A stretch of DNA of 64,000 nucleotides from Pyxicephalus adspersus. Lineage: Eukaryota; Chordata; Amphibia; Anura; Pyxicephalidae. The notes beneath the pieces are model-generated. The model did not search any database. It was not told the DNA's origin and worked only from the letters and a program-made list of their open reading frames with translations. Each line of letters begins with the position of its first letter. The stretch's first letter is position 1. The stretch spans positions 127,801,459-127,865,458 of the forward strand of contig NC_092859.1 of the NCBI RefSeq assembly GCF_032062135.1. Reading direction: 5' to 3'. Positions 14,401 through 47,680 of the stretch are shown piece by piece. The position numbers were made by a program, and so were the translations under genes.

Positions 14401-14975
14401 TCAGCATGCTTTGTTATTCAATAAAACCTTCAACAGAAAACTTTTAAAAATAGTATGTTAAAAGCAATGATATCCTGGCTAGCACACATCATATAGTCTG
14501 ACCTATTACAAATTTAATGGCCTCACATTTCGTGGATTTTTCCAATTACTATTGTACCCTGCTCAACTTGCACAGTGGAATTGTTAGCTATTGACGTGCA
14601 ATGAGATAACCTGGAATAAATGCAAAACAATATAATTTAAAGATAACAAGACTTATCCACAAAATGCTTTGAGACAAATGAACACCCTAGAATGATTTTG
14701 TAAATGTTATTTTGTTACAGCAGCACTAGTGCATATCAATAGCTAGAACATTTTTGTAAGATATTGTAATTACAGGCACAATTCTAATAAACTTGCAGCT
14801 ATTAATATTCATTATAAAATTATCATCACTTTAATAAAAAAAAAACAGAAGCAAATCATTTACTGTAAAGGAAATGCTTACTCTAAGTATACTATTTCTG
14901 GGTTAATTTCACAGTTACTAACTAATACAACAAAATTACAACAAAAACACACATTTCAAAGTAATGTTAGAGTAC

Positions 14976-17970
14976 CTCCTGCAAGGATCCGTTCTTCAAG
15001 GTCAGCCATTTCTTTCTTGTATGCTTTCATAGCAGCCTCTTTAAAGCTGGGACGAATACGTTTTTTCTTTGGGACTTCAACAATTTTTTCAGGTACATTT
15101 TTGTTTTCGTAATCATTTTCTGTCACATCATAAAATATTTCACATTCAGGCTCCAAAACATCCCCCTGGACCAGATCATCACATGGGGTGTCATATCCAT
15201 CCATTTGTAGACTGGCAAACTCTGCATCATATGAAGCGTTTTCATACTCTTGATAATCTTGTATCAGCTCCAAATTCTCATTTGTATTGGTGCGGTTTTC
15301 AAGTTTAGCAAGAACTTGTTCCATCACCTCTACATAATCAGCTCCATTCTCATTACCAGCTGCTGACTCACTATAATCAACATCATCATCAGCTTTATAA
15401 TAATAAGGTTCTGTATAGACATCAGAGTCAAGAGTTGTGCTGGATTCGTTAGCTGTAGACTGTGACAAAGTCCGAAATCTGCCCATAAATGAAGAACCAC
15501 TTTCATCATAACCACTTAAACTCTGAGTGCTTTTATTCCAAACAACTTCCAAAGCTGATTTGGCCCGCTGGAGAGTAGAGCCAAACTTAGGAAAGCTGAA
15601 GGTTTTATCTGAGAGATCAATACTTAGTCGACTGTGCCAGGATTTTGGTGGTGCATCTTCTGAGTCATCACTTGGCAACTCACTCTGGCTGCGATACATC
15701 ATTGGCATTCGTGTTTGGTTCTGGTAAATTTCATTGGCATTTGTTTCACTATAGGAGGCATATTCACTAGTCCATTGATTTTGTGCTGCAGTGCATATTT
15801 CTGGGCAAGATGGGGAATTGCTATCAAGTGTGTAGTTGTAGTTTTCTGTGTTGTATGGAAGATCTGTACTTTGGCACTTTTCGTAATTGTTTGCATAAAT
15901 TTCCATCTGTTGATTTGAAGGGCAGTTTACATTATAGGTAAAGGCATGTTGGGTAGATGTGTCAAGACCAGAATCAGTTCCTTGATCTAGATGGTGCCAT
16001 TCCTTCCAAGGAGATAAATCACCACGTAGTGAAAGTTGAGAATCACTGTAGTGGCTACGGTCTCCTGAAGCACAAAGTATTCCATTGCTAACACCACTGT
16101 CAACAGTTTCAGTATTCTCTATTTCATTTTCCTCATGATAAGGCTCTGCATCAGTACCAAATGCTTGTTCTTGTGAACTTGCACACCAAGTTGATGAACT
16201 GTCTTCAGGTCTCCTTTGCCATAGTTCCCTATCTGAAGAAGACAACAAGGAGCTGCCATTGGTTCTTACAAAATATTGATTTTCTGAAAAGTCCTCGGAG
16301 TAGGACTGGCATAACTTTGAAAAATCTGATTCAGAACGACTAAGTTTGGGAGTAGAAAAATCAGTCTGTGAATGCCACAAAGGAGTTGAATCGCTGTAAT
16401 ATACTTTGCTTTTTTCTAAGCTATCAGATACTGGGGACTGCAAATTAAGATCTCCATAGTCATCTTTGCTTTTATAAGTGGAATCAGTCGTTCTATGAGG
16501 TTTTTTATTGTGTGATGATTGGCCACCCCTTTTAATCCCAGTTGATTTCATCTGACCTTCTGATTTGGAAATTGTTGCATAACTGTTTCTGTTGATATCA
16601 GGTCCAATTTCCTTGTCACTGTCATCCTGACATTCCCATTCATCATGGTTAATCTTTGGCTCCATGGCAGAAAATTTCATATCCATACTCTCATAAGTCT
16701 GAGAAGAAGGTAGTACCTTTTCTTTTTTACCTTTTAATTCATGTGAAATAATATCTGTAGAAACCCCTATTCCAGTTCCCTTTAGTTTGTAACATTTTTT
16801 TAAAACTAAATCTCTGTCTTGTTGTGTACCAAAATAAACAAGGATCGGTCGAGGCTTTGCATTTGGACAGTCTCTTTGATGTCCTATTCTGTGTGCAACT
16901 TCAATTTTCATATTGTTTTGTGCATCCGCAAATCCCATTTTCTCAATTAGAATTCTATAAACAACATTTTCACAAATTTCCCCTTTTTCTTCAGGCACAT
17001 TTAAAAACCTAAGACTGACCTTACTACTGTGGTGGCCCAACTGTTTAATATAGTCATGGATATCCCGAGTTTCCCTTCTTGACTGTACAAATCCTGTTCT
17101 CAGCTGTTCGATCTCACTTTGTACAACCTCAACACTACTAGAAATTTCGTCAATTGATTGCTTTAAAGAGTTCACATGTCCTCTTAATTCTGAAAGCTCA
17201 GTTTCAATTTGACTTATACCCTGCAGTTCTTTGAAGATCATTTCCATGACATCATGGGTTTGACTTATGCATCCTGTTGAACTAAAGCCAGGTTCTAGGG
17301 TACTGCTTTTCTGTTGACGGACTGTTCTGTCCAGGGACTTGCTTCGTAACCCCCATGTTTTCTTCCATGTGCTTACTTCTGAATCTGAGGAAACACACTC
17401 TTGACTCTTTTTCCATTTTCTAAGTTTGCGAAGCGCACCCATTTTTAGACTATGTAAAGTACGTTCACCGTCAGAACTTCCATCAGATGGAGCTAAACTG
17501 CTCATACTTTTCCTGTTTCGCCTTACTGGCATGGTTTGAGATGAGTATTCCTTGGTTGTACTGCCAGCCCTTGTTTCACTTAGAGATTCAGAGAATGAGC
17601 TATCAAGAGAAGATACTTCTTGAAATGCATCCTCGTTATTATTGCCAGTTAGAATAATATTCTTTTGCAGCCCATTGGCAATTGCTACCCGATAACTGAA
17701 AGTTGGAGAAAGTGAAAATTCCTTCTTCACTGTATCTTCTTCAGTTGATAAATTGCATGAAGAAGAACATTTAGCGATTTTCTTTACTGTGCTTTTTATG
17801 GTAGTTGAAATGTTGGGATTTTTGTACAGGGTAAATTGGGAAATATCCTGTTCCTCTTTGCTTGGACTCTCTTTCTTTTTAGTAGGATTCCCCAATTTCT
17901 TTGTAAACATTCCTTTGCAAAGCTTATATATATAGGAGAAAATCAGGCTCTTCAATAGGGCAGAAACCAT
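14976..17970 (-). CDS. UNC13C: UNC13C (Munc13-3), large N-terminal coding exon (partial gene)
   Basis: Munc13-3 primes synaptic vesicles at presynaptic active zones by opening syntaxin for SNARE assembly. This exon encodes only the isoform-specific N-terminal 998 residues; the C1, C2B, MUN and C2C domains belong to later exons outside the window. Recognition rests on blocks matching mammalian UNC13C as I know it: residues 1-28 (ending [13 protein letters not shown]), 83-104 ([15 protein letters not shown]), 150-190, 544-565 ([18 protein letters not shown]), 760-860 and 969-998. The start is Met at 17970 because homology begins exactly there; the open frame continues 32 codons upstream to 18066 without counterpart. 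The frame leaves homology after ILAG at the donor GAG|GTACTC, last exon base 14976, phase 1. The chain is rich in Ser and acidic residues and looks mostly disordered, except residues 241-418 (separate entry) and a basic amphipathic C-terminal helix at 969-998. No frameshift or internal stop is present, so the gene looks functional. Confidence 0.95.
15465..15555 (-). other. UNC13C: Candidate calmodulin-binding helix within UNC13C
   Basis: Residues about 806-836 and the stretch just before them ([13 protein letters not shown], with Trp811) form a short basic amphipathic helix preceded by KFGSTLQ. Munc13 isoforms are known to carry calmodulin-binding sites in their non-conserved N-terminal parts, with an anchoring Trp followed by further hydrophobic anchors. 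The Trp plus Leu, Ala and Val spacing and the basic flank fit such a site. The assignment is inference from motif and position in the chain. Confidence 0.4.
16717..17250 (-). other. UNC13C: LINE ORF1-like module inside UNC13C: coiled coil, RRM-like and C-terminal domain
   Basis: This sub-region encodes residues 241-418, numbered from the Met at 17970. Residues 241-313 form a heptad-rich coiled coil with regular Leu, Ile and Val positions. A segment starting [10 protein letters not shown] (319-328) follows, then ENVV (334-337), AHRIG (359-363), RPILVYF (374-380), DRDLVLKK (386-393) and LKGTGI (396-401). This order and spacing is that of LINE ORF1 proteins: trimerising coiled coil, RRM opening with LRxxGxPE, an ENV motif, an AHR motif before the C-terminal domain, a RPI(I/L)V strand, and a KGT/KGK turn. 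In LINEs these bind RNA as a trimer. Here the frame is intact and the same module is in mammalian UNC13C, which argues for old domestication rather than a recent insertion. The function in Munc13-3 is unknown. The similarity was judged by eye, without a profile search. Confidence 0.7.
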
Positions 17971-18066
17971 CAGGGGAACTTTATATGAAACTATAATTGC
18001 AAAAAAAGGTAACACTAGCTCCTGAGAAAGGTTTGTATGTCCACAGCACGCACAGCTGTAGCACAA
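17971..18066 (-). other. Probable 5'UTR or intron end upstream of the UNC13C start
   Basis: The open frame extends 32 codons upstream of the chosen Met, but that segment has no counterpart in mammalian UNC13C. On the minus strand two acceptor-like sites occur: a T-run followed by GTGCTACAG, giving an exon start near 18055, and CCTTTCTCAG, giving one near 18021. Either would make the coding exon begin with a short untranslated leader, as expected if a non-coding first exon lies further right. The choice between them cannot be made from sequence alone. Confidence 0.45.
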
Positions 18067-18813
18067 AAAAAATTGTACGTGTTACAAAGAGTGTCCTGTG
18101 GAAGGACCACAAGGTCTGTAGGCTGACGCTCCACTTCTCATGATTTCTGGATGTGTCTACAATGAAGGGAATTTTTATATCATTGATAGGTAATCAGAAC
18201 ATACAAATAATTGATTATCAATGCAGACAGCAAGCAATGCATGCATAGTCTTTTGGGTGATGTAGCAAGGTCAACAAACACATAATGTTAAACAGTTTTC
18301 TGCATGCTTAATAATTTTATTCTGTATTTATCCTATTTAACTAATTGTTACGAAACATTGATTCTTTAAGCCCCACTCTAGTCATAAGGTTTTTTTTAAA
18401 TAATTTGTTAATTGGTTTTCAGTAGAGTGTCCCACGATAATGGTTTAAACTGTTCAACTGATGTCTCTCCCAATATAAAAAGATTTCTTCTTACTAATTA
18501 ATGGGTGTCCGCCAGAACACAAAATTAGGACAAAAATTCCTACTTTCTGTTTGTGTGATGGGTATCAGGTAGAGCAGAGAGTAAGGTCAGATCAGTCCAT
18601 TTACATTCTTTTATGATTTCAGACAGAACAGGTAGTCGGAGAAAATCCAAGATCTATTGGACTAGAGAAAGACAAAATTATCTCCCAACCTGTTAGTTGG
18701 GTGTCAGACAGAATTCAATGAATTCCCTGACTACTTGCCTAACTGAGGGGTTTTGAACAGTAAAATAGATGAAATCCCTAACTTGGCATACAACCAGCTA
18801 CGAAAAACACATA

Positions 18814-46648: not shown

Positions 46649-47680
46649 ATGGCAGAGGCACAAGCAAGTTTCACATCGTTGGAGTTAAGGGCTGTCATGA
46701 AGTTTTTGTTTCTCCAGGGAAAGTCAGGAAAGGACAATCACACTGAGATGTCACAAACACTGGGGGAGAAGTGTCCTTCCTACAGCACTGTCAAAACCTT
46801 TATATCTCGTTTCAAGGCTGGGCATTTCACTGTTGAAGATGCGCCCCGCAGTGGGCGCCCCCCAACCTCAACTGACCTGGAAACCTGCCATGCTGTCCAT
46901 GAGCTGGTATTATTGAGGACCAGTCAATATCCAGATACTTGACATCTCATGGGAGCGTTGGGTTTGTTATCACCACTATCTTAGACATGCGCAAGCTTTC
47001 AGCGAAGTGGCTGACGAAATGTTTGAACAGTAATCAGAAGAAGGAACGAGTTGAAGCATCCAAAGCCGTTTTGGCCCATTTTGAAGCTGCACAGAACTTT
47101 TTGGCTGGGTTATTGAGTAAGGATGAAACCTGGCTCCACATCTATGATCCTGAAACCAAGGAACAGTCAAAAGAATGGCGCCCCAGCCGGTTCTGTGGTC
47201 GAAGAAGTCTTGAACCCAGAAATTGGACAAAAAAGTCATGGTGTCCGTTTTCTGGGACAAACACAGTATTCTGTTGGTGGAGTACCTACCTCAGGGCTCT
47301 AGTATCACCAGACAGTATTATGCTAACCTCCTGGACCAGCTGAAGAAAGCAATTTAGACAAAACGCCATGGAAAGTTGACCAATAGGACACTTTTTTTGC
47401 AGGACAATGCACCTCCGCACACGTCCAATGTTCTGGCTGCCAAATTGAACACCCTGGGTTTCCAATTGGTCCACCTTCCCCCCCTACTCACCTGACCTGG
47501 CCCCTTCGGACTACTATCTGTTCCCGAATTTGAAGAAACACCTGAAGATACAACGTTTTGAGGACATTTCTGATGTCAAAACTGCTGCTGAGAGCTGGTT
47601 TGCGGCCCAACCAAACTGCGCTGTACCAAGTGCATCAGTCTCAGGGGGGAAATTGTTGAATAAATGTGTTATTTCATAGC
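46649..47680 (+). pseudogene. mariner transposase (DD34D), frameshifted remnant
   Basis: The coding remnant begins at ATG 46649 (the GTG just before is not needed) and runs about 97 codons through an N-terminal helix-turn-helix region, with SRFKAGHFTVEDAPRSGRP as the typical linker. It ends at a stop at 46940. The frame then shifts: 46941-47343 continues in frame 1 with KDETWLHIYDPETKEQSKEW, which holds the first catalytic Asp (codon near 47122). The frame shifts again; DNAPPHT with the second Asp starts at 47403 in frame 0, after an in-frame TAG at 47355. A further one-base shift in a C-run near 47478-47485 precedes YSPDLAPSDYYLF with the third Asp. Exactly 34 residues separate the second and third Asp when the shift is allowed for, so the class is DD34D. 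The middle part, including the region before the second Asp, is also scrambled. No active product is possible. Confidence 0.92.

Follow-up and report, generated by a model that had tools for sequence, protein, structure and literature searches.

The first coding exon of UNC13C (Munc13-3) in the frog Pyxicephalus adspersus encodes, at residues ~236–406, a long helix followed by an RNA recognition motif (RRM) whose closest relatives are the ORF1 proteins of long interspersed nuclear elements (LINEs). The exon lies in a 64,000-nucleotide stretch (the window; C2:127801459-127865458 of the 1.44-Gb genome that we searched), and residue numbers of the module are counted from the residue after Met. 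We are close to certain that the UNC13C RRM is of the LINE ORF1 type, and we think it highly probable that the transfer ran from LINE to host; the reading as a whole, in which a LINE ORF1 RRM was captured before UNC13B and UNC13C split and was retained together with a coiled coil, we hold with only slightly less confidence. The RRM most likely comes from an ancient jumping gene captured more than 400 million years ago, an age that we infer, and it now resides in nerve-terminal proteins, UNC13C and UNC13B, that prepare vesicles for release.

The ORF1-type RRM of UNC13C

Searched against the PDB, a profile built from 17 UNC13C RRMs gave E-values of 2.7e-6 to 4.5e-6 for four sequences of L1 ORF1p, the next match being at 0.2. 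The single frog segment also found L1 ORF1p first (2ykp, E 2.8e-5, query residues 28–177), which argues that the motifs in the segment are not there by chance, and the shark RRM as a single sequence gave a significant ORF1p match as well. An initial annotation, made from the sequence alone, had described a helix followed by RRM motifs and had proposed that an ORF1 domain was captured by a UNC13 ancestor; this order (helix, then [32 protein letters not shown]) is present in the frog exon, and the capture of an ORF1-type RRM has been borne out by profile, fold and genome searches. The fold comparison suggested there pointed the same way: a Foldseek search with the UNC13C model gave nine matches at E ≤ 0.001, all to human ORF1p, and of the solved structures it is ORF1p that comes nearest to the predicted RRM fold (27% identity in a 90-residue overlap). 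An NCBIfam scan returned weak coiled-coil and other low matches, all below cut-off. In BFVD the UNC13C model had a single match at E ≤ 0.001, an unnamed 161-residue entry (A0A346G423, E 7.2e-5).

A search of 5.8 billion proteins with a profile of the UNC13C helix and RRM (7994 candidates scored) returned 42 matches at E ≤ 10, comprising five pieces of UNC13C (P0234–P0236, P0238 and P0255) and 37 ORF1-like proteins (best E 8.5e-13), 35 of which matched the RRM profile at E ≤ 1.1e-5. We aligned 18 of the 37 (P0237, P0239 and P0243 among them); these and UNC13C have AHRxG-, KPRPIIVKF- and KKLKGTGI-like stretches in common, hence the working name LKGTGI-type. The profile of this alignment identified L1 ORF1p in the PDB at 7.2e-15, followed by unrelated coiled coils from 3.4e-4. 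The full profile matched all ten UNC13C proteins tested at 6.7e-26 to 2.1e-32 and UNC13B at 6.8e-9, and its RRM part matched them at 4.3e-15 to 5.5e-20 and 1.3e-6, respectively (all scaled to 177,635 sequences); the UNC13 E-values are somewhat flattered, since the members were picked for their resemblance to UNC13C, though not by that many orders.

When the frog genome was searched with P0237, UNC13C was the best match (2.7e-12), with 118 others from 1e-7 (119 of 820 candidates scored). Of a few such matches that we inspected, one has ORF1 followed by an endonuclease (PF14529) and then a reverse transcriptase (PF00078, E 2.3e-38), and two others have, by eye, ORF1 with reverse transcriptase-like or endonuclease-like frames; on C7, what had looked like a long open frame next to an ORF1 match was an assembly gap. 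The assignment of the LKGTGI type itself to LINEs rests on homology and on one label (P0275, 'Endonuclease-reverse transcriptase'). In a tree with an imposed root, built on 109 columns from 37 rows (the original 52 less 15 near-copies), UNC13B and UNC13C are joined (87/81) and both group with the LKGTGI set (94/81), neither support being starred; human L1 and six frog LINEs stand apart. UNC13 does group with ORF1 proteins in the kind of tree initially proposed, the nearest being the LKGTGI type and not mammalian L1 or the frog LINEs included. Frog L1/Tx1-like LINEs were discarded as the immediate source: their matches were weaker (E 3.1e-6 and worse), and the six included in the tree lie outside the grouping of UNC13 with the LKGTGI set.

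Within the exon the helix has a mean pairwise identity of 0.94 among 20 UNC13C proteins, the highest of ten exon stretches measured, and the RRM one of 0.72 with 1% gaps, whereas the linkers are loose (0.53–0.55, with 17–55% gaps). This protein conservation supports the view that the ORF1-type RRM has been kept intact in UNC13 over a long time. The host protein, P0002 (UNC13C, P. adspersus), has the UNC13/Munc13 domain set, with C1, C2 and MUN recognized by Pfam at E ≤ 0.001; no Pfam domain was found at that threshold in its exon-1 part. The exon is contained in a minus-strand frame, 14956–18081, that is open over 1041 codons (Table 1).

Table 1. Positions in the window of the UNC13C first coding exon and of the features within it
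Feature	Position	Strand	Remarks
UNC13C first coding exon	14976..17970	minus	ATG at 17970; GT donor at 14975-14974; translation 100% identical to P0002
Coiled coil (residues ~236-314)	17026..17262	minus	long helix in the model; sequence alone cannot separate it from ordinary coiled coils
LINE ORF1-type RRM (residues ~318-406)	16750..17016	minus	beta-alpha-beta-beta-alpha-beta; profile, Pfam and Foldseek searches
LKGTGI motif	16768..16785	minus	common to LKGTGI-type ORF1-like proteins
Start of disordered linker	16675..16749	minus	where ORF1 proteins have their C-terminal domain; none detectable

Elsewhere in the window, an open frame at 46903–47343 on the plus strand resembles, by its motif, a mariner-type transposase remnant and had no Pfam match. 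An Rfam scan of the whole window gave no match.

A diverged copy in UNC13B and the age of the module

When the segment was searched against the frog genome, with 150 of 565 candidates scored, the match ranking second was an exon on C6 (L003) that is open over 825 codons, with 30% identity across the helix and RRM (E 1.3e-15); further along the same strand are UNC13C-like C1/C2B-region exons in order, and then MUN exons. The MUN exon of the gene on C3 equals, by eye, the Munc13-1 PDB chains over 47 residues and that of C6 differs at three, so we take C3 to be UNC13A and, by elimination, C6 to be UNC13B; from its position, the 825-codon upstream exon is probably where the brain-type isoform (bMunc13-2) starts. 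The UNC13C RRM profile reaches the frog UNC13B RRM at 1.3e-6, and identity between the two frog proteins is 0.40 in the helix and 0.24 in the RRM. The UNC13B model (mean predicted local distance difference test score, pLDDT, 77.6) has a predicted RRM of the same topology as that of UNC13C, with ORF1p leading its structure matches; since 21 of the 22 alignment rows were UNC13C, this model may be pulled toward the UNC13C fold. As frog UNC13B has a diverged copy, the capture probably predates the split of UNC13B and UNC13C, which we presume to be whole-genome-duplication copies; this is the simplest reading of the sequences. A search of the frog genome with the UNC13B exon found only UNC13B and UNC13C (4 candidates). 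UNC13A is not known to carry such a segment, and we detected none in it, its upstream DNA having been covered only in part. The one match noticed just upstream of UNC13A among the 150 scored (C3:65077699) is a copy of a LINE, carrying ORF1 and a frame that resembles an endonuclease, and not a UNC13A module.

The UNC13C RRM is present from shark to mammal, in keeping with the initial annotation, which placed the segment in mammalian UNC13C as well. Among the best 120 of 591 UNC13C relatives, each covering at least 96% of the exon, all 119 other than P0002 had at least 182 of the 185 segment positions filled. Coelacanth UNC13C also has the module, and a further search, in which the coelacanth exon served as query (best 120 of 126 matches), gave 112 new rows (P0122–P0233), 88 of which have the RRM at E 1.2e-32 or better (19/19 of P0122–P0140 and 69/93 of P0141–P0233), teleosts, sturgeon (P0183) and shark (P0168) among them. 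Seven of the 24 rows without such a match were inspected (P0177, P0188, P0212, P0216, P0217, P0221 and P0232) and appear to be truncated or alternatively spliced models. The initial dating of the capture, before frogs and mammals split, was thus true and too young, as the coelacanth, teleosts, sturgeon, shark and frog UNC13B all have the module. UNC13C was sampled from shark to mammal, and UNC13B in the frog.

Three of the gene models are unusual. The predicted isoform X5 of Heterodontus francisci (P0212) retains the helix and exits the exon at about the RRM border, so splicing might make the RRM optional. At the start of the Callorhinchus milii UNC13C model (P0232) is what appears by eye to be a UNC13 C2A domain, joined to portions of exon 1 of UNC13C; this might reflect an alternative start of the C2A type that UNC13C formerly had. 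The third is labeled peroxiredoxin-2 and comes from a turtle (P0184); UNC13C exon 1 matches it at E 7.5e-239 over 42% of the query, and it is probably a misnamed or fused model.

Origin of the helix and function of the module

Several observations weigh against the capture of a LINE ORF1 RRM and its retention with a coiled coil as set out above. The Pfam check that had been proposed gave a divided result: with the RRM alone PF02994 was the only family that the frog sequence matched at E ≤ 1, but at 15.4–17.0 bits it stays below the gathering score of 22.4, and with the helix included weak matches to unrelated coiled-coil models rank above the ORF1 model (16/16 members matched by a coiled-coil model vs. 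12/16 by PF02994; best E-values 1.9e-5 vs. 3.7e-4). The sturgeon RRM as a single sequence reaches ORF1p only at E 0.07–0.11, and matches nothing else. A single-sequence PDB search with the UNC13B helix and RRM gave no ORF1p match, UNC13B is absent from the P0237 matches among the frog candidates scored, and its branch in the tree is very long. LKGTGI-type ORF1 was not found beside reverse transcriptase in viral contigs, and the ORF1-like proteins were themselves chosen for resemblance to UNC13C. Finally, the helix alone, in ten UNC13C proteins, scores 14–21 bits against the ORF1 helix profile, and unrelated PDB coiled coils score up to 23.6 bits against the whole ORF1 profile. As to Pfam, only one of ten LKGTGI-type proteins matched PF02994 at E ≤ 0.01 (P0243, 18 bits, below cut-off); PF02994 seems to miss this ORF1 type, and by this result its cut-off is no defining trait of the fold.

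Because the helix scores no better than unrelated coiled coils, it may be a host feature, and there is an appreciable, though minority, chance that the RRM alone is LINE-derived and was inserted just behind a coiled coil already in UNC13. The greater conservation of the helix, both within UNC13C and between the two frog proteins, fits such an origin, as does the background-level match of the helix to ORF1 helices; however, a helical-looking stretch directly precedes the RRM in the aligned ORF1-like proteins too, and the full ORF1 profile spans helix and RRM in the UNC13C proteins tested. For the trimerizing ORF1 coiled coil of the initial annotation we found no support: an ORF1 origin of the helix is not supported by its scores, and the RhxxhE trimerization motif, as defined in the ORF1p literature (PMC5940361), occurs in none of six UNC13C proteins. 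Of six ORF1-like proteins, too, P0240 lacks the motif altogether and P0241 lacks it in the helix.

Nor did we detect a counterpart of the ORF1 C-terminal domain. The profile part behind the RRM matches neither the ten UNC13C proteins nor UNC13B, and in the UNC13C model this linker is disordered (pLDDT under 50 from model residue 182 onward). In ORF1p this domain is described as cooperating with the RRM to bind single strands (PMC5940361), and since it is missing, nucleic-acid binding by the UNC13C module is a weak guess and, on sequence grounds, doubtful. We consider it unlikely that at the synapse the module acts on RNA in the manner of ORF1p on LINE RNA, by binding it or by forming ribonucleoprotein (RNP) assemblies: nine of ten UNC13C RRMs have a net charge of +4 to +7 (that of shark is +1) and Arg or Lys occupies 11 of the 35 RRM positions that are invariant in 17 species, but C-terminal domain and trimer motif are both lacking, and the frog UNC13B RRM has a net charge of -6. 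In addition, human ORF1p Arg206, 210, 211 and 220, which contact RNA, align to Q/H, P/S/A, N/S and Y/I/F, respectively, in 17 UNC13C RRMs. A shade less likely again is the broader proposal that a retrotransposon-derived module, from a LINE capture that predates living jawed vertebrates, serves UNC13C and brain-type UNC13B for RNA binding or RNP-like assemblies at particular synapses; if true, a vesicle-priming factor would double as an RNA-linked scaffold.

Given the lack of a C-terminal domain and of RhxxhE, an acidic UNC13B RRM and a mildly basic UNC13C RRM, we favor an assembly role, and tentatively suggest that helix and RRM form an N-terminal assembly module. A LINE ORF1 RRM would have been captured into a UNC13 gene before the UNC13B/UNC13C split and, joined to the coiled coil, retained by UNC13C within a single large 5' exon and by UNC13B within the upstream 825-codon exon. 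The strongly conserved helix may self-associate or bind an active-zone scaffold partner, the RRM without its C-terminal domain may act as a protein-interaction surface and not as an RNA chaperone, and together they would place UNC13C and UNC13B isoforms at particular release sites. Such a role would fit reports that the bMunc13-2 N-terminus binds, and is recruited by, ELKS1 (PMC5830537) and that link Munc13-3 to the positioning of calcium channels (PMC6198076), the part of the segment itself being putative.

Transfer in the reverse direction, with a LINE taking its RRM from UNC13, is very improbable: we found no point in its favor (invertebrate UNC13 lay outside the search), ORF1-type RRMs occur in human L1, frog LINEs and proteins labeled insect, and UNC13B and UNC13C fall together with the LKGTGI set in the tree, with the unstarred supports and imposed root noted above. 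It is hardly credible that the ORF1-like motifs arose by convergence in a host RRM of unrelated origin, as no non-ORF1 RRM reaches E 0.001 by RRM profile or Foldseek and ORF1p does so in both.

Comparison with known systems

Among the titles and abstract openings listed in searches of the open-access literature we found no paper linking UNC13 with ORF1; subscription papers and preprints were outside this search and may hold an earlier description. Newly found here are the module in teleosts, sturgeon and shark and the diverged copy in the upstream exon of frog UNC13B. According to PMC7017353, the N-termini of Munc13-3 and bMunc13-2, where the UNC13C/UNC13B module lies, are divergent and contain large unstructured regions, and little information exists on their function; the predicted module would place a folded domain there, and would offer a concrete handle on why these two proteins behave differently from Munc13-1, in which no module was detected.

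UNC13C resembles LINE-1 ORF1p (human 2ykp/2yko/2w7a/2ldy) in RRM fold and sequence and in having a helix directly ahead of the RRM; unlike it, UNC13C has no C-terminal domain, RhxxhE motif or ORF2, and the identity is 27% over 90 residues. The LKGTGI-type proteins are nearest in sequence and tree, some having KPRPI, NAKPRPI and LKGTGI in common with UNC13C, but they are of 203–338 aa, most with more sequence behind the RRM (by eye), whereas UNC13C is a 2190-aa host protein. The powdery mildew EKA genes, a fungal effector family said to derive from LINE ORF1 (PMC4641428), can be likened to UNC13C by that description alone. Like UNC13C, the domesticated LINE-1 ORF1 gene L1TD1 carries ORF1 sequence within a host protein; L1TD1 is described as almost wholly L1-derived and as originating in the eutherian ancestor (PMC4161310), whereas in UNC13C the ORF1 part is a small portion of a synaptic protein and much older. 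The capture proposed here would be a far older domestication of ORF1 than that dated in PMC4161310, and one inside two core synaptic proteins.
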